Shown here in pieces: positions 23,236 to 33,117 of a stretch of 64,000 nucleotides of DNA (positions within the stretch are counted from its first letter, which is position 1; each line of letters opens with the position of its first letter). The DNA lies in contig WFMF01000123.1 of NCBI GenBank assembly GCA_011033025.1, forward strand, positions 9,848 through 73,847. The letters run 5' to 3'. A program made the position numbers and the translations under genes. Origin of the DNA: Beroe forskalii (Eukaryota; Ctenophora; Nuda; Beroida; Beroidae). Below the pieces are notes generated by a model that saw nothing but the letters and a program-made list of their open reading frames with translations, was not told the origin of the DNA and ran no database searches.

Positions 23236-24735
23236 ATATCAAGAATTCCACACCATCCAAGCTTTCCACCAAATGTCCTCATAAATCATAGTGACATCTA
23301 CATCGCCATAATATCGAATTTATCTTGACCAGGATTCAACATCTCGATGCTCAAAGGACATAACGACATAAAAAGCTTTTGGTGTTTACAGCGTGTGTTA
23401 ATTCATTGGGAGTTAAGACACACACACTTTTCAAGGGAATCCAGCTGCTCTACAATTCTGCATACCATGTGCTAAAATTGTGTGTTTTTATCTGAGCCTT
23501 CTGTCACGTGACATTAATCAGTGTGTGCCCTTTTCTTAATTAACTGATTGCTGATAAGGTTTTCATTGAAGGCTTGATTAGTAGTCACTAATTAATTTCT
23601 AGGTAATCCCTTCGTGTTTGTGTATATGTTTCTGCTTTTGTGAAATTACTTATCTTTATTTGGTTTTTACCTTTTTCTTAAGACATGTGTTCATCTTTGG
23701 TCCTTACACTAAATTCAAAAAGTAAAACTAATGTCTAGACTAAAGCTAAGGAATTTTACAAATACAAATATGTAATTTACACTACAATTAGGATTATTTA
23801 TCGGTCGCCATTTTTGATGAGCACAAGAATTCATTAATTAAGAAAATAGTTAACTAGAAAAATGAAAACTTCACTCTTATTTTGAGAGTACACTCAGCAT
23901 TATGAAGCTCCTTGATAAAAATCAGCATAAAAATATTTAAATGCAAGGCATCAGCCTCAATATAAAAAGATCTGTGTTTTACTTTTCGATACATTTTGCA
24001 ATTTAATCCTGGAATTTTGAAATTGCTGTACAAATTGCAAAATATTTTTTCCAATATGGAATTCATCTCTGATAAATGTATAATATGATATATGCTAAAT
24101 CAAAATGAATTAGTTATAAATTATTGGTAAAATAAATAATACACTAAGTATATAGAATCAAATCTGTCTTCAAATATCGGTAATTCCTGATTATATATTT
24201 CTGAAATTCTGTTGGAGAGAATCATGACCATACTTTATGATTACCTATGTCAAAAGTATTCCATTAATAATATTACTATCGGCTATGCTCACTTTTCTAT
24301 GAGCATCTTGAAATCATTTACTATCAATAAATAATAGTAAACCAATGTCAAAAGTTAGTTCTTTTAAATCATCATTAATTAATCTTAATAATCATCATAA
24401 ATCATCTTCATGTAAGCATATAACTTGATTAATAAGATCCATGGTCAAGTTGGTTTTGTAAACAATTTCAAATTTTGCCACGTTTTATAGCCCTTGATTT
24501 AGATTTTAATTTTGATATTGTATCCTTGAATCAGGATAGAAACTAGGTACAACATCCATAGATAAAGAAGTGACGAAAGCACAATATTTTCATAGAACCA
24601 ACTTGTCTTGTGATCTCTAACTCTTCAAATTCCCTCACGGAATCGAAGGAGCTCCTATAAGTTCTTAATCAAACTGTTCTTGTCTCTGTTCTATATATTA
24701 AAGAGTACAGTGTCATTTCTATACTCAAATCATGC
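23236..24735. other. No gene recognised
   Basis: Very AT-rich sequence. Short open frames on both strands lack splice context or family resemblance. Confidence 0.5.
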
Positions 24736-24741
24736 TTTATT
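24736..24741 (-). terminator. AATAAA polyadenylation signal of the terpene synthase
   Basis: On the minus strand AATAAA lies about 210 bases after the terpene synthase stop. The intervening 3' UTR carries paired CACGTGC/GCACGTG motifs near 24813-24862. Confidence 0.55.
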
Positions 24742-24951
24742 CCTCCTGTGTGGTGAGTCTTCTCTTCGTCATATGTCACAGATTCTTCCTCCGATAATTG
24801 CAGTCTGTCTGGCGCGTGCACACTGCACGTGCGCTTTGTATGCGCGCACTGCACGTGCTCTAAGTGTATATACACAGACTCTGTGACTCTACCTCCGGGT
24901 GCTTGTAATCTTCTCTCCTGTTCCTCGTCCTTCCGTCCTCCTCTTCTCTCC

Positions 24952-27900
24952 TCAGTCCTCCGGAGCGAGGCTGCTGTCCATGGTGGAAGAGACATCCCGG
25001 AGGAAGGAGAAGGGAGACGTCTCACTGCTGTACCTCCCGCATCTTCTCACCCAGACAATGTGTCCCGAGAACCACCGTCGGTGGGTGTCTAGGATCTGTT
25101 GAGCTGTGTCGTCCTCCTCGTCTACTAACTTAGACAAACGCTCGTGTTCCCGCACGCACTCGTTAGCCCTGTGAGGGAAGGGAGTATTAGCTCTGTTAGG
25201 GGAGGGAGTATTAGCTCTGTGAGGAGGGAGTGTTAGCCCTGTGAGGGAGGATATTAGCTCTGTTAGGGAGGGAGTGTTAGCTCTGTGAGGGAGTGTTAGC
25301 TCTGTGAGGGGAGGGAGTGTTAGCTCTGTGAGGGAGTGTTAGCTCTGTGAGGGAGTATTAGCTCTGTTAGGGGAGGGAGTATTAGCTCTGTGAGGGAGGG
25401 AGTGTTAGCTCTGTGAGGGAGGGAGTGTTAGCTCTGTGAGGGAGTGTTTGCTCTGTGAGGGGGTGTTAGCCCTGTGAGGGGGGAGTATTAGCTCTGTGAG
25501 AGATTATTAGCCCTGTGAGGGAAGGGAGTATTAGCTCTGTTAGGGGAGGGAGTATTAGCTCTGTGAGGGAGTGTTAGCTCTGTGAGGGGGGGAGTATTAG
25601 CTCTGTGAGGGATTATTAGCCCTGTGAGGGGAGGGATTATTAGCTCAATAGCTTTGTGAGGGGGGATTAGCCCTGTGAGGGGAGGGAGTGTTAGCTCTGT
25701 GAGGGGAGGGAGTGTTAGCCCTGTGAGGGGAGGGAGTGTTAGCTCTGTGAGGGGAGGGATTATTAGCCCTGTGAGGGGAGGGAGTGTTAGCTCTGTGAGG
25801 GAAGGAGTGTTAGCTCTGTGAGGGGAGGAAGTGTTAGCTCTGTGAGGGTAGGGAGTGTTGGCCCTGTGAGGGGAGAGAGTATTAGCTCTGTGAGGGATTA
25901 TTAGCCCTGTGAGGGGAGGGATTATAAGCTCAATAGCTTTGTGAGGGGGGATTAGCCCTGTGAGGGGAGGGAGTGTTAGCTCTGTGAGGGGAGGGAGTTT
26001 TAGCCCTGTGAGGGAAGGAGTATTAGCTCTGTGAGGGATTATTAGCCCTGTGAGGGGAGGGATTATTAGCTCAATGTTTGTGAGGGGGATTAGCTCTGTG
26101 AGGGAGGGAGTGTTAGCTCTGTGAGGGGAGGGAGTGTTAGCCCTGTGAGGGGAGGGAGTGTTAGCTCTGTGAGGGGAGGGATTATTAGCCCTGTGAGGGG
26201 AGGGAGTGTTAGCTCTGTGAGGGAAGGAGTGTTAGCTCTGTGTGGGGAGGAAGTGTTAGCTCTGTGAGGGTAGGGAGTGTTGGCTCTGTGAGGGGAGGGA
26301 GTATTAGCTCTGTGAGGGATTATTAGCCCTGTGAGGGGAGGGATTATTAGCTCAATAGCTTTGTGAGGGGGGATTAGCCCTGTGAGGGGAGGGAGTGTTA
26401 GCTCTGTGAGGGGAGGGAGTTTTAGCCCTGTAAGGGAAGGAGTGTTAGCTCTGTGAGGGATTATTAGCCCTGTGAGGGGAGGGATTATTAGCTCAATAGC
26501 TTTGTGAGGGGGGATTAGCCCTGTGAGGGGAGGGAGTGTTAGCTCTGTGAGGGAAGGGAGTGTTAGCTCTGTGAGGGGAGGAAGTGTTAGCTTTGTGAGG
26601 GGAGGGAGTGTTAGCTCTGTGAGGGGAGGGATTATTAGCCCTGTGAGGGGAGGGAGTGTTAGCTCTGTGAGGGAAGGAGTGTTAGCTCTGTGAGGGGAGG
26701 GAGTGTTAGCTCTGTGAGGGGAGGGAGTGTTAGCTCTGTGAGGGGAGGGAATGCTAGCTCTGCGAGGGAGTGTTAGCTCTGTGAGGGAAGGGAGTTTTGG
26801 CTCTGTGAGGGGAGGGAGTGTTAGCTCTGAGAGGGAGGGAGTGTTAGCTCTGTGAGGGGAGGGAATGTTAGCTCTTTGAGGGAGTGTTAGCTCTGTGAGG
26901 GGAGGGAGTGTTAACTCTGTGAGGGGAGGGAGTGTTAGCTCTGGGAGCAAGATTTGTGGGAATGTGTGGGAGTGAAGACTTTAAGGGAGGTAATTTTATA
27001 AAGGGGAATGTTGTATTAGTTGAGTGAGATTATTTGTTTTATGTTTATCGGGCATTGGGAAGAATTTATCATATCAAATCCTGAACATCGGCTCAAATGT
27101 TTGTTATATTGCTAGGATATCGTTTAAGGTTAGGGTAATGGTCACTGGTCAGGTTAGCGACTAGGGTAATGGTTAGGCTGTAAATAACGTGCGGTTCCTT
27201 TGCTCTGGGTGGTCCATTATCACCCCAACGCCAAACGGTCGGCCTCTATTCCATTTATAATTATTTGAATGAACAAAGTGAGAATCAGCTTCTACTGGTA
27301 TTTTCTAGATAAACCTTCAACTGTGGGATCATTCGACATTCATTTGACTAAGTATATTACTGAGTATATAAAATTGGTCGGACTAATAATCCTTTGAATA
27401 TGATTCTCATGCCATAATATTTTATGCAGTTTTATTAAAACTCAGATTATCGGATAGTTCATTATGTTATCAGAACAAGTGACATGAACTAGTGAGCGTT
27501 GGAAATGAGGGATGTGCAAGGGGCCCTCACACCAATGTTAAATTGCAGCTAGTCATGAGCTGTTAAATAAACAAAAGTTCATTTTATTAAAAATTTCAAT
27601 GCTCCGCTGCAGAACTGATCATTGTCGTTTGTCACAGTTCCGTAAATAAAATATTCACTCAATCATTATTTACTTAATCATTGACAAAAATCATTGGTAT
27701 ACATATGCTCCAAAAGCCTGAAGCCTGCCATGATTAAACTATAGAAGTTGAACGAAGTATATCTGCAACGTGTTTTCCTACATTTTTATTCAAAGTATGA
27801 TGTTTTGGTAAACCTCGCGAAAGACCTGGAATACCGATAATAACGATTCCAGTCTCCGCTTAACGCTAACATCCTAATTGCTTCCTCCCATGGTCATTGT

Positions 27901-29213
27901 TCATCTTATTGACATTGCGGTTGAAGCTTTTATTGCTCTGAGTACTATTGGGTATATACCGACGCTTTGAACAAATAATGTTGAAACGAATTATGGTAAA
28001 ACACAAAGGATAACGCGCAACTTTTTATTACAAAGTGTAAACATATGTCTAAAAATTAGTGATAATCAAATTTGGAATGGAATTCTAGAATTTTCTAACA
28101 ATTTCTACTTTTTGACTAAAACGGAATGAGGTCTTGATTTGTTTTACTTAAACAATGTTTTCTATCACGGTATGATAAGATGATAATGGAACCGATAGTA
28201 ACTACAAAAAGTAAAATCATTATTTGCTTCAAAGTTCAAACCACAGATTGCATTCAATTAAAAGTTATCTGACAATATGAATTATGAATTATTATTAAGT
28301 TTTGCAATATTTTCAGCTAGGACCTTTTACAATTTTACGAGTGATTCCCTAGAGATATGACATCTGGACGTAATAAACTGACCTATACTGGTTAGACCAC
28401 TTAGAACATTTATTTTTTCCTAATTTAGTCATTTCAAAGATGGTGTAAGATGCAAAATTACCCCACCTTTTGAATTATAATAGTGCGTTCGGAAAAGATT
28501 GTCACTTGCAATTTTCTGAGGAACCGGCTGCCGTGAGTGACTTTTTGATATGATATTCGTTTTTTTCAGACATTTTTGGATGAAGATAATCGGGTTTTAC
28601 CGATAACTAAGTTTTCTTAGCCCATTCTACAGCAGATTCAAATTTATAATTTTTTGCTCCGCTGTACGAAACTGACCACAAATTTCGTTGTCAAAGAAAA
28701 CACGCTATCAACGGACCCAGGAAGAGCGAGATAATCAAAATAAGGCTGTTGCAGCACACGTGGATGCTTACTGGAACAAAGGAACTGTTTTTCGTCCAGT
28801 TGAAATAATCTTAAGGGGGTGCTTTGACCTCTAAAAGGATATGCTCCAGATAGGGCAATTGCAACTTTTGCTCTGACAATTGCCCAGAAATATAACGTTT
28901 AAATAACTTGAAATTAATTCAGACCCTTCCGTACACGGGACAACCATTTTTAAGATTTTGAGTTATTGTCAGACCCTTCCGTACACAAGAGACAACTGCA
29001 TTTTTACTGAACTGTTAAATTTGCCACATTTAGCTCTAACCTTCATCAATCAAACAGGGTTAAATTGTATGTTTGCCCCGAATGTCAACCAATCATCCTA
29101 TTCTTTAGTTTTTGACCTGAACGGCCTGAATATGCCCTGAATAGTGAAATCGGACCATAAAAACATGGCTTAGAAGATGTAGAATTCGCCATACAGCGGA
29201 GCACCTGAAAACA

Positions 29214-29246
<33 letters not shown>

Positions 29247-32020
29247 AGCTAGATGGCCCACTCAAAAATCTTCGTTAACACTGAAAATTTGCAATTCAGT
29301 CTGGTAGAGACCCTTGTACTCGAATATGTCGAAATTTTGACATATTTGGTCATATTTGTCATTTTATGCCTGTAGTGACAATCATAATATTTATACCCGA
29401 GACCTGGGTATGGATATGACGTCTGTTTATGTGTTTGCTTAGACATACCTCTCGACTGAAATGTGGGTAGCCTCGTCGAAGATGACATCTCTGATTTGTT
29501 GCACCGCACACACATAGTTAAATCTGTCGTTTTCTCGGAATATCTGGAATGGGGTACGAGGTCAGACTACCAGAAATGGTTTTATTATCATTCGGAGAAA
29601 TTGATTCACTGTCGATAGCAAATTAAGTCTAAGCTGGTTTTAATATCCAGTATTTTGTTGAATAATCATTATTACCTGTTTTTCGTATGAAAAGAGGTCG
29701 TTGAGCACTGCTGCGTGTAGGGTAACAAGTCCCAGGCACTTGTCTAGGATATCCTTATCAGCGCACTTGTTGTAGCTTGTAAAACCTGTGGGAGGGGAGG
29801 AAACTGATGAGTTTCTTGCCATGTTTTGGCAGAAATTTAGATCTCAGTAGGAAAGTTGAAAACGTTGAATGAAACGAGGAATTTAAGACATTCAGACTCA
29901 AAATCTTTTGAAAATCAGGAGATTATCGTCGTCAGCTGTGATATATGAGATAATGATGGCAGGGCACGTACCAGCTAGGTGGACACACATAGCCCCGGCT
30001 GAGTCCTTCATCCTCAGTTCCTCGTACTCCTCAATGGACATGGGGAAGGGGGCTCCTGCCATCATGTTGAAGACGTGGGGGATGCTGACCGTCACACCTT
30101 TCTTGAGGTGGTCGTCCAGGTGGACCACGAACTCATCATACGCTGCCAACTCCATGCACCCCAGACTGGCAGTACGCAGGTACCGGGCTAACTTCACCTG
30201 TAATAGAGGGGGTTACTTCCGGCCAATGTTAGAATATTATCTACTATGAACTGAATACGTATCTTGAAAGCCCATACGCACAGGGTACTGCGGGCCGCCG
30301 GGCCAACTAAGATAATCAGCGTATATTCCAAGTTCTTTCCAATTTCAATGTTATCCTAGATCATGTCACAGTGTCCTTGACCGTGTCCCTCCATGCCCCA
30401 GTGTCCCACCATGCCCCAGTGTCCCTCCATGCCCCAGTGTCCCACCATGCCCCAGTGTCCCTCCACGCCCCAGTGTCCCACCATGCCCCAGTGTCCCTCC
30501 ATGCCCCAGTGTCCCACCATGTCCCAGTGTCCTTGACCATGTCCAATGTCCCACATGCCCTACTCACCACAGCGTCGCTGGAGTGGAAGTGTCTGAGGAG
30601 GGGCATGTCCCAGGCGGAGCTGTTCACCAGAGCAAGGATGTCCTCGTTAGTGTCCCGAACTATCTCAATATTCCGCTGTACTTTCTGATAATGAGGTATA
30701 ATTTGAGGTATAATGTGAGAGAATGACGTCATCGTATTCCGCTGTACTTTCTGATAACGAGGTATAATTTGAGGTATAATGTGAGAGAATGACGTCATCG
30801 TATTAATTGGTGTCGTTAGAGCGGAATGCGGATGCAATGCTCAAGAAAATTTGTATATGTTATGAGATTATTTCGGTGAACTGTTTTCGGTTTTATCTCC
30901 CGCTTAATATACTGATCTAGATCCAAGAGGCACAGAAAGTCTAACATTTACATCTCCGAAACTGATGAAAATGTATCATACAGCAGGTTTTGAAATATTT
31001 CAAAATAAGGGTCTACTGAAAGGTGCTCGCTTACCTCGTAGTTGTTAATGGAGTTGCCGTTGTCGTCCAGGAAGAACTTATCCCTGATGTCGTCTATGGT
31101 CCACACCAGGACCAGCCACAAGATGTAGCATTCCAGCTGTTCGTCCGTGCAGTTGTGAGCTGTCAGACTCGTCAGCAGATCAGCCTAAAGGGGGGCAAGT
31201 CTTTCATTGAGGTGGGATTCATATAGAGGAACATGGGTGAAATTTGAATTGTAGCATGGAGTGAGATAGTAGTATTGAGCACAATTTTCTATTTAATTAT
31301 CTATCCTTGAATAATTAAAATTCCATGCAGATCGATCTAACTCAGTAGATTTAGCGGTCAGGAAGATTTAATGGTTTTAAACGCTTTCATATTAATGTGC
31401 CCTATAATAGACCTGTGTACTTGTATTTAGGTGAAGGAAAATAATTAAATATCCTAATGGAGTGTTATTTATGCCGACCAAATGTCATAATATATTAGAA
31501 TATTCATGCGATACATATTCAGTTTGTGCTGCGTTCTCTCCTGTATTTTCAACCACACCCAAAGGAATCAAAACCAGTGAAAACACGTCTGATTCGTACA
31601 GTTCGCTACCTCGATTTAAACAATCACAACACCATACTATGCATTTCTCGTCTGGAAGAATTTCTGGTAACCACAAGGATATAAAATTCAAATTTGTCCT
31701 GTCTGAAAGTCCAATTTAAATAAAAAATTTCGCACGATTCAAAACTCTAAAGCATGACTTCATGGGCGAAACTTCCCTTGATCCTGGAATTTGTAAATTT
31801 GGGTTGAGGCATACCTTGAGGCTCCTCCAGGCGATGTATTTCTTGGGGTTTGAAGGAGAGATGATCCCGGTTTGCTCCATGACTCGGAGCACGGCGTCCA
31901 TGAGACAGGGCTCGTAGTACTTCCTGTTGATCTGTCTCATGACTTCCTTCAGGGTGAGTGGTAGTTTGAAATCCGTTACTTTCACTGTCGATTCCTCAAT
32001 CCTCGGCTTTTCCGTAAATC
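24952..32020 (-). CDS. Class I terpene synthase (animal type, spliced), N-terminal exon missing
   Basis: Seven exons on the minus strand join in phase: 31815-32020, 31035-31184, 30568-30684, 29972-30197, 29676-29785, 29449-29543 and 24952-25168. They give 373 residues from the first recovered codon. Class I terpene synthases ionise prenyl diphosphates and cyclise the carbocation. Landmarks appear in order. The LVWTIDDIRD motif carries the metal-binding DDxxD (100-104). An effector Arg lies in YEELRMKDSAG (about 220). NDLFSYEKQ (262-270) is the NSE-type motif. RRWFSGHIVWVRRCGRY ends in the conserved Arg-Tyr (347-348), 85 residues after the motif's Asn. The last NSE ligand is Gln instead of Glu. 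The first recovered exon needs one 5' base, so a short upstream exon is missing; I found no candidate with the right phase. All junctions are GT-AG. The last intron (4.3 kb) holds the splice-site minisatellite. The intron-exon structure argues against bacterial contamination. Confidence 0.88.
25165..26945. repeat. 24-bp minisatellite built from the terpene synthase 3' splice site
   Basis: Roughly 75 copies of TTAGCYCTGTGAGGGGAGGG plus AGTG, with 19-25 bp variants and some higher-order blocks containing TTAGCTCAATAGCTTTGTGA. On the minus strand each unit reads as a pyrimidine tract, CTCACAG and then RGCTAA. This is the sequence of the acceptor and first six bases of the exon at 24952-25168, which sits at the array edge. 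A 286-codon open frame at 26090-26950 (-) is a product of the period. Confidence 0.95.
27600..29203. mobile_element. TIR elements of the TGCTCCGCTG family in the last terpene synthase intron
   Basis: TGCTCCGCTGTACGAAACTG at 28655 and the inverted TTCGCCATACAGCGGAGCA ending at 29203 bound a 549-bp candidate MITE. Inside, AGACCCTTCCGTACAC occurs twice (28921 and 28970). A related end with GCTCCGCTGCAGAACTGATC lies at 27601. I found no clear target-site duplication. Confidence 0.5.
29216..29244. repeat. Poly(A) tract, 29 bases
   Basis: Uninterrupted A run directly beside the TIR element. It may be a retroposed tail or simple repeat, and its length may be inaccurate. Confidence 0.9.
30367..30556. 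repeat. 18-bp minisatellite in a terpene synthase intron
   Basis: About ten copies of CATGCCCCAGTGTCCCWC, ending a few bases from the donor of the exon at 30568-30684. Confidence 0.92.
30669..30800. repeat. 66-bp tandem duplication spanning a terpene synthase acceptor
   Basis: Two copies, 30669-30734 and 30735-30800, differ at about one base. Each contains (minus strand) the acceptor ATTATCAG or GTTATCAG followed by AAAGTACAGCGGAATA, the first 16 bases of the exon at 30568-30684. The duplicated acceptor would add 22 codons without a stop. Confidence 0.92.
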
Positions 32021-33117
32021 CTGGGAGGAAGGGAAAACGGGTGAAAATCATCGCACTTAATGCAGTAAGATTCTGTCTGGGATGATATTCAATTGTGATC
32101 GATGGGATGTTAACTGTGCTTAATAGGGTAATCTATACGAGGTAATCAGTTTTAAACGCGATCTGTGTCCGCAATTTAACATTGATCAATTATGACGGTT
32201 TTTATGCTCTGATTTTGTCACTCATCACGAAAAATGCAAATCTTTGATTTCTTCACCGAAATCACATTATCCTAAGTAGTTGAATATTCCTTCCCATTAA
32301 GCCAATACATATTCCAATACCTACTACTTTTTCATATAACGAATGACTTTTTACTAGAGAAAAAATAATCCTATCTCTCAAAGACAGCCCTCTACTCAAT
32401 CATTGTTGAAGCACCAGATCCATTAAAACTATCCATTATCCATCTCTTTATGTTTTTCCATTTCATTATTTCGTGGAAAAATTAACGACAAAATCTTATA
32501 TTGTTAAACAGCAAGTCGTTTCAAAGATAACGAATGTACTGCTTCGTACCATGATAAGGATGAGAAATGACTAAAGAAGAAGCTCGTGTTGTCTTTCTCT
32601 TCCTGGTGTGATGGCATCCTGAGACAGCACGGAACTCATCATGAGTTGCGCATGCAGTAGGAGCGGCACATGCAGTAGGAGCGGCACATGCATGTTGAGC
32701 ATTGTGGAAGGTGGATGTAGAGACGGGCATAGTAAGTATCTAAGTATCTGATAAGAGGAGCAGCAGTACACTATGGTCAAGTAGGGTAGGCAGCGAACTG
32801 TAGTTGAGAATAACAAGCACTTTCCTGCGCAGACAATCCGAGAGAGAGAGAATGAGAACAGATGTGCGGTACGGGGAGATAACAAGGTTTAAATAGCTCC
32901 TGTTTATTATGTCAGGTAACAATACGTAATTATCATATATATATTATTATTGTTGACACAACTCATACTATACTCCACTACTACTGGTATACTGCAAGGC
33001 ACAGGACAATCTAATCTCATGTCTGCTGGTTTCTTCTCCCATTTATCTGATCCTTCGTCTGCCCTACTCCTTACAGCAGCAGATCTGCCTCCCTCCCTCT
33101 TTCAACGTCATGCTCCG
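32021..33117. other. Region expected to hold the terpene synthase first exon(s)
   Basis: No exon with the required phase was found. A duplicated CATGCAGTAGGAGCGGCA segment lies at about 32648-32690. Two ATG-donor combinations that I tried (33387-33464 and about 33105) give the wrong phase or a stop. Confidence 0.4.

Follow-up and report, generated by a model that had tools for sequence, protein, structure and literature searches.

An array of about 78 acceptor-like units at the last intron-exon boundary of a terpene synthase gene in the ctenophore Beroe forskalii

Within the 64,000-nucleotide stretch of Beroe forskalii DNA analyzed here (the window), a terpene synthase gene on the minus strand carries a minisatellite that occupies the 3' end of its last coding intron and extends 7 nt into its last coding exon. 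At a probability of roughly 70%, we regard this array as a splice-boundary minisatellite of the 'mirage' kind, in which the exon-proximal acceptor would make the enzyme and the array would be mostly passive, possibly with a cost to gene output that depends on its length. Splice-boundary minisatellites are already known as a kind. What we would cautiously call new within the open-licence literature is how many copies there are, a unit that carries its own branch point, pyrimidine tract and AG, and the occurrence of comparable arrays in unrelated genes of this genome, one of which has a twin with a single unit.

Host gene and anatomy of the array

Seven minus-strand exons from 32020 to 24952, joined at GT-AG boundaries, form one open frame (Table 1). 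The host protein matches the Pfam family Terpene_syn_C_2 (PF19086) with E = 1.5e-7 and 31.8 bits at a cut-off of 23.7, the query protein differing from the exon model by a few codons at one exon start. Matches to solved terpene synthases in the PDB were weak (best E = 0.0013), and an earlier version of the protein gave no PDB match at 0.001. The last junction is crossed without a gap in two of the three PDB alignments shown, and in the best-scoring alignment a gap in the PDB chain begins two residues past this junction. Class I terpene synthases are characterized by the motifs DDxxD, NSE and RY, the NSE motif usually ending in E. The host protein possesses DDIRD and RCGRY, and its stretch NDLFSYEKQ has the N and the S, with Q at the usual place of E. 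The exon carrying the start codon was not found upstream of the most upstream exon in Table 1. A search of the genome with a 215-residue host query detected no terpene synthase gene other than the host at E <= 0.001, and the use of paralogous terpene synthases as outgroups was dropped for this reason; a Pfam profile search of the genome gave zero matches and missed the host gene too, which makes it uninformative on paralogues. Elsewhere in the gene, an 18-bp minisatellite at 30383-30560 starts 8 nt inside an intron, right after the donor, and the array intron also contains a dispersed repeat of about 0.9 kb at 28477-29385, for which at least 41 further genome matches with 82-90% identity were detected (40 of 246 candidates scored). 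A scan of positions 24400-33000 against Rfam returned zero families at the gathering score.

Table 1. Features of the terpene synthase gene and of its array (positions in the window).
Feature	Position	Strand	Remarks
Last coding exon, stop codon included	24952..25168	-	First base 25168; first 7 nt GGCTAAC are part of the repeat
Splice-acceptor minisatellite	25162..26947	-	About 78 copies of RGCTAAYACTCCCTCCCCTCACAG (sense strand); 422-bp higher-order repeat
AG of exon-proximal acceptor	25169..25170	-	Score 12.5 (array maximum 12.7)
Last coding intron	25169..29448	-	4280 nt, phase 2, about 41% array
AG of array-distal acceptor	26941..26942	-	cttgctcccag/AGCTAACAC; 1772 nt upstream of the real acceptor, out of frame
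Exon preceding the array intron	29449..29543	-	Donor GAGAG/GTATGT
Exon with NDLFSYEKQ	29676..29785	-	Metal-binding stretch
Terpene synthase exon	29972..30197	-	
Terpene synthase exon (exon 4)	30568..30684	-	Three in-phase candidate AGs; start may differ by up to 7 codons
Second tandem duplication in the gene	30669..30804	-	66 bp x 2.1 (TRF); over the likely acceptor of exon 30684-30568; 22 open codons
Terpene synthase exon with DDIRD	31035..31184	-	
Most upstream exon found	31815..32020	-	

TRF detected the array with a period of 24 bp, 77.6 copies and 79% matches, and in addition a 422-bp higher-order period present in 4.3 copies. The first-pass annotation, made from the letters of the window, had placed about 75 copies at 25140..26945, for which TRF gives 25162-26947, and had described the unit as a 3' splice site joined to the beginning of the last terpene synthase exon; apart from the slightly different limits, both statements are borne out. 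When the minus strand of the array was cut unit by unit, 81 pieces were obtained (45 of 24 bp, 18 of 19 bp, 11 of 23 bp, four of 8 bp, two of 22 bp and one of 21 bp), of which 71 keep an AG at their end and 68 contain CTAAY. The latter is the branch-point consensus, and a typical unit consists of this branch-point-like CTAAY, a pyrimidine tract and CACAG, that is, a whole 3' splice site. Its 7-nt stretch GGCTAAC is common to the unit and to the start of the last exon, the intron-exon boundary being thus spanned; the first base of the equivalent stretch is A in 61 and G in 20 of the 81 pieces. The branch-point consensus lies in the RGCTAA part of the unit, and on the branch point the first-pass annotation had been silent. 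In the 216-Mb genome there are eight exact occurrences of the 24-bp consensus and ten of a looser pattern of the 19-bp form, all of them within the terpene synthase array. On the opposite strand (25169-26940, plus strand) there are 69 donor-like GT[AG]AG sites in 1772 bases and many G runs. Four stretches of the array folded as DNA gave hairpins no better than those of their own shuffles.

This anatomy suggests a route of origin. A 24-bp segment that joined the final 17 nt of the intron to the initial 7 nt of the exon may have been tandemly duplicated, and the array may then have grown to about 78 copies via multi-unit duplications. The copied exon bases GGCTAAC, now intronic, would supply a consensus branch point, so that each typical unit would represent a complete set of branch point, pyrimidine tract and AG.

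Acceptor strength and reading frame across the array

Every unit was scored with a generic 3'-splice-site matrix and a branch-point consensus, neither of them trained on this species; a species-derived set of junctions, with candidates for 16 of 22 neighbouring match pairs and several of them doubtful, was left unused. Scoring of this type had been proposed in the first-pass annotation, and with the generic matrix it placed the units far above control AGs: a score of at least 8 was reached by 56 of the 71 unit acceptors as compared to one of 126 other AGs in the array intron, and by 55 of 3428 other AGs on the minus strand of the window. Strong sites with CTRAY 15-45 nt upstream numbered 52 in the array, eight in the rest of the minus strand and seven on the plus strand, and the best-scoring branch A was found 17-18 nt before the AG in 37 of the 71 unit acceptors. 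Since the strong upstream acceptors are transcribed earlier and many of them score near the real one, their leaky use is likely. It was also proposed that the array acts as a sink for splice factors, titrating U2AF or poly-C binding proteins. Such a role would draw on the 71 acceptor-like sites and the C-rich sense RNA; a single array at a single locus (as judged by the exact pattern) would, however, compete with all other introns of the genome, for which 71 sites in one gene appear implausible by number, and there is no known reason to expect very high expression, so that titration is hardly credible.

With regard to the reading frame, 21 of the 71 unit acceptors, the real one counted, are in frame by length alone, and only four are open into the last exon, namely the real one and those located 24, 48 and 114 nt upstream, which would add 8, 16 and 38 residues, respectively. 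The remaining 67 of the 70 upstream acceptors run into stops. The earlier statement that the array is readable in frame, from which protein length variants with added octapeptides had been proposed, thus holds for three upstream acceptors and fails for 67. As had been stated, the two nearest upstream units are 24 bp long, and splicing to them is predicted to add RANTPFPH and RANTPSPN, which are of the RANTPSPH type expected; lengths that are not a multiple of 3 start at the third upstream unit (22 nt). Two in-frame units in a row are expected about 36% of the time anyway, given that 46 of 77 units (the four 8-mers excluded) have a length divisible by 3. Further support for length variants may be seen in the 66-bp duplication of the same gene (Table 1), which is likewise open, but the units fail to preserve the frame, those in two other genes (31 and 34 bp, see below) are not multiples of 3, and each octapeptide would insert two prolines into a stretch that is probably helical. 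Functional length variants are therefore quite improbable as an explanation of the array.

Under the preferred reading of a mostly passive splice-boundary minisatellite, the working enzyme would be made from the exon-proximal acceptor 25169-25170, because this acceptor alone stands before real exon sequence and, three exceptions aside, alone is in frame. The sense strand of the array contains one GT in 1772 bases, so internal cassette exons can hardly form, and upstream acceptors, if used, would give a longer last coding exon and an enzyme cut short ahead of its C-terminal part; the array would therefore be mostly passive. In nonsense-mediated decay, stops in the last exon usually spare the mRNA. 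If the 3' untranslated region has no intron, the stops met from upstream acceptors would fall in the last exon, which makes truncated enzymes likelier than decayed mRNAs. Leaky upstream use would reduce the output of the gene, possibly according to the length of the array.

Tandem arrays elsewhere in the genome

Control introns were taken from two conserved gene families of the same genome, the CCT chaperonins (45 matches, 35 used) and the myosin heads (83 matches, 48 used). Arrays touched the acceptor edge in 10 of 90 exon matches as compared to the donor edge in 3 of 90; the 90 matches include the seven terpene synthase exons, were not all verified as exons and overlap in a few cases. The sign test for acceptor versus donor edges gave 0.046, or 0.055 without the terpene synthase gene, so that a bias of array edges toward acceptors is only suggestive. 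Of the 28,517 intron bases of the first set 4246 belong to arrays, and of the 7333 of the second set 80, which makes 12% together. Coverage alone would thus give about 10 of 90 acceptor edges, and a preference for acceptors emerges only in the comparison with donor edges. Among the ten arrays at acceptor edges, four have the acceptor AG in the unit (two in the terpene synthase gene and one each in the CCT locus L051 and the myosin locus L062), and four have a typical unit that lacks it (L049, L060, L066 and a further array in L062). The remaining two are a 19-bp two-copy repeat that ends about 30 nt upstream (L052) and a 40-bp array bordering a CCT fragment (L055). The latter was rejected as a splice-boundary case, because the coding sequence of the related L054 continues across this border, and it looks like a duplication breakpoint.

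The myosin gene at L062 (C225:1030500-1034300) contains, near 1033.1 kb, a 34-bp acceptor unit in 7.9 copies that ends at the exon FNSFEQLCIN, presumably a conserved myosin stretch. Of the first 11 bases of the unit, 10 agree with the exon start, and YTAAC lies where these bases meet the intron part. The next exon of this gene is abutted by a 16-bp array of 54.5 copies whose typical unit lacks AG. In another myosin gene, L060 (C173:210800-216400), a 16-bp array (17.2 copies) stops 18 nt short of the exon match and looks to be situated in the same intron as the acceptor array of L062, and at a further myosin exon a 22-bp two-copy duplication lies over a donor-like site (L061, 2907-2954). The CCT gene L051 on C558 has a 31-bp acceptor unit in four copies, one of them diverged (2694-2817), and its inverted duplicate L063, 36 kb away on C558, has one acceptor unit between near-identical surrounding exons; the pair is located near 177.9 kb and 214.4 kb of this contig. 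These two copies look like a before-and-after pair, in which the order of the states is our reading. Together with the 422-bp higher-order repeats of the terpene synthase array, the four-versus-one pair points to turnover of array length within one assembly. All upstream acceptors tested in the myosin gene (6 of 6; TTTCAG/TT) and in the CCT gene (3 of 3; TTTCAG/AA) meet stops, so here, too, the exon-proximal site should yield the protein.

The sequence CCCTCGTGTTTCAG is common to the CCT and the myosin arrays and has 15 exact copies in the genome, seven of them outside both genes and the CCT twin, as compared to one copy of a control pattern. A dispersed element carrying a 3' splice site was considered on this basis and rejected, as 15 copies give no sign of a large family. 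A further array, of CTTCTTCTCAG-type units with a TRF period of 54, was observed at L037 (3590-4865) and ends at what may be a short exon whose donor is GTAAGA. A search of the genome for let-7 gave two sub-threshold matches at one place, one per strand, and GAGGTAGTAG was absent there. A search for GFP gave zero matches, as did its controls, and thus carries little weight.

Arrays are frequent in this genome in general. They occupy 23% of six 10-kb regions chosen at intervals along three large contigs; the figure for the window is 14%, and that for the CCT stretches 3%. It might hence be argued that the terpene synthase array is a chance minisatellite whose likeness to splice sites is a by-product of a C-rich repeat, and the agreement between touched acceptor edges and overall coverage is what such a view would expect. 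However, in strong acceptors the array ranks first of the 133 arrays in 201,684 bp, with 56 as compared to 21 in the runner-up; the bases surveyed are those of the window, of the six regions and of 20 loci retrieved for other purposes, and do not form a random sample. In addition, the array shares exon bases, and arrays reach acceptor edges more frequently than donor edges. We consider an origin by chance very improbable. The array is extreme, yet it lies in a genome where minisatellites form readily.

Relation to known systems and meaning for splice-site choice

The mirages of amphioxus (Adh3, globin BflGb6/BflGb9, troponin C and PGBD5) are minisatellite-like tandem duplications across an intron-exon boundary, many units of which keep AG or GT, with units of 10-72 bp in Adh3, and regular splicing is reported to be undisturbed by them (PMC3087553, PMC3902484). 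The array described here resembles them in its tandem units over an intron-exon boundary and in the splice dinucleotide kept in many of these. It differs in its approximately 78 copies, as compared to 3 or 6 units of 150-160 bp reported for the BflGb6 mirage, and in a unit that consists almost wholly of splice signal, a branch-point-like CTAAY of its own included; furthermore, in amphioxus splicing itself was tested. The VNTR in intron 18 of human ABCA7, as described in PMC5954066, has a 25-bp unit in about 24 reference copies and begins exactly at the splice site. It is thus similar in unit length (24 versus 25 bp) and in its location directly at a splice site, but it copies the donor (GT) and not the acceptor, and its polymorphism and disease link are established, whereas our array comes from one assembly. 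In human CBS, the 844ins68 allele is a 68-bp duplication of the intron 7/exon 8 junction, of which one of the two sites is strongly favoured and normal mRNA results; the text calls these donor sites, whereas a title cited there calls them 3' splice sites (PMC2630376). There are two copies in CBS as opposed to about 78 here. Finally, PMC3087553 and PMC2812944 discuss intron gain via tandem duplication, in which the repeats copy or activate splice signals; there a new intron arises, whereas here none is evident and an existing acceptor was multiplied. By analogy, the amphioxus mirages and CBS 844ins68 suggest that a choice of the exon-proximal acceptor would be in line with what is seen at other duplicated boundaries.

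These systems also bear on a second reading, in which upstream acceptors would be used frequently and the length of the array would set the amount of full-length terpene synthase, most of the product being enzyme cut before its C-terminal part. Such a role would be in accordance with the 67 of 70 upstream acceptors that are unproductive, most of the upstream sites scoring strong, and with ABCA7, where VNTR length is correlated with reduced expression and with increased skipping of the following exon, retention of one unit being about 2% (PMC5954066). On the other hand, the same paper states that one-unit retention is unchanged by VNTR length, and the lack of disturbance reported for amphioxus splicing is contrary to it as well. 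Moreover, similar arrays reside in conserved CCT and myosin genes, which should tolerate little loss, and among the 21 distinct 24-mers of the array the branch-point and AG positions are not clearly less variable than others, so that the unit variants give no clear sign of constraint at splice positions. Taken together, frequent use of upstream acceptors as a setting of enzyme amount is unlikely, and the mostly passive splice-boundary minisatellite is the reading we retain.

Classic experiments with duplicated sites indicate that exon sequence adjoining a duplicated 3' splice site favours that site. A broader proposal, which we advance tentatively and consider rather unlikely, is that in this genome the 3' ends of introns are recurrent birthplaces of arrays of complete acceptors, that the spliceosome takes the last of up to 71 near-identical sites before the real exon, and that array length may act as a heritable dial of gene output. 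The choice that the spliceosome makes between identical 3' splice sites lying side by side has mostly been examined with few engineered copies. The genome of B. forskalii offers about 2, 4, 8 and 71 acceptor copies as well as a duplicated gene pair with four versus one units, and from this natural copy-number series the rules of site choice and the cost of extra acceptors would be readable with ordinary long-read cDNA.
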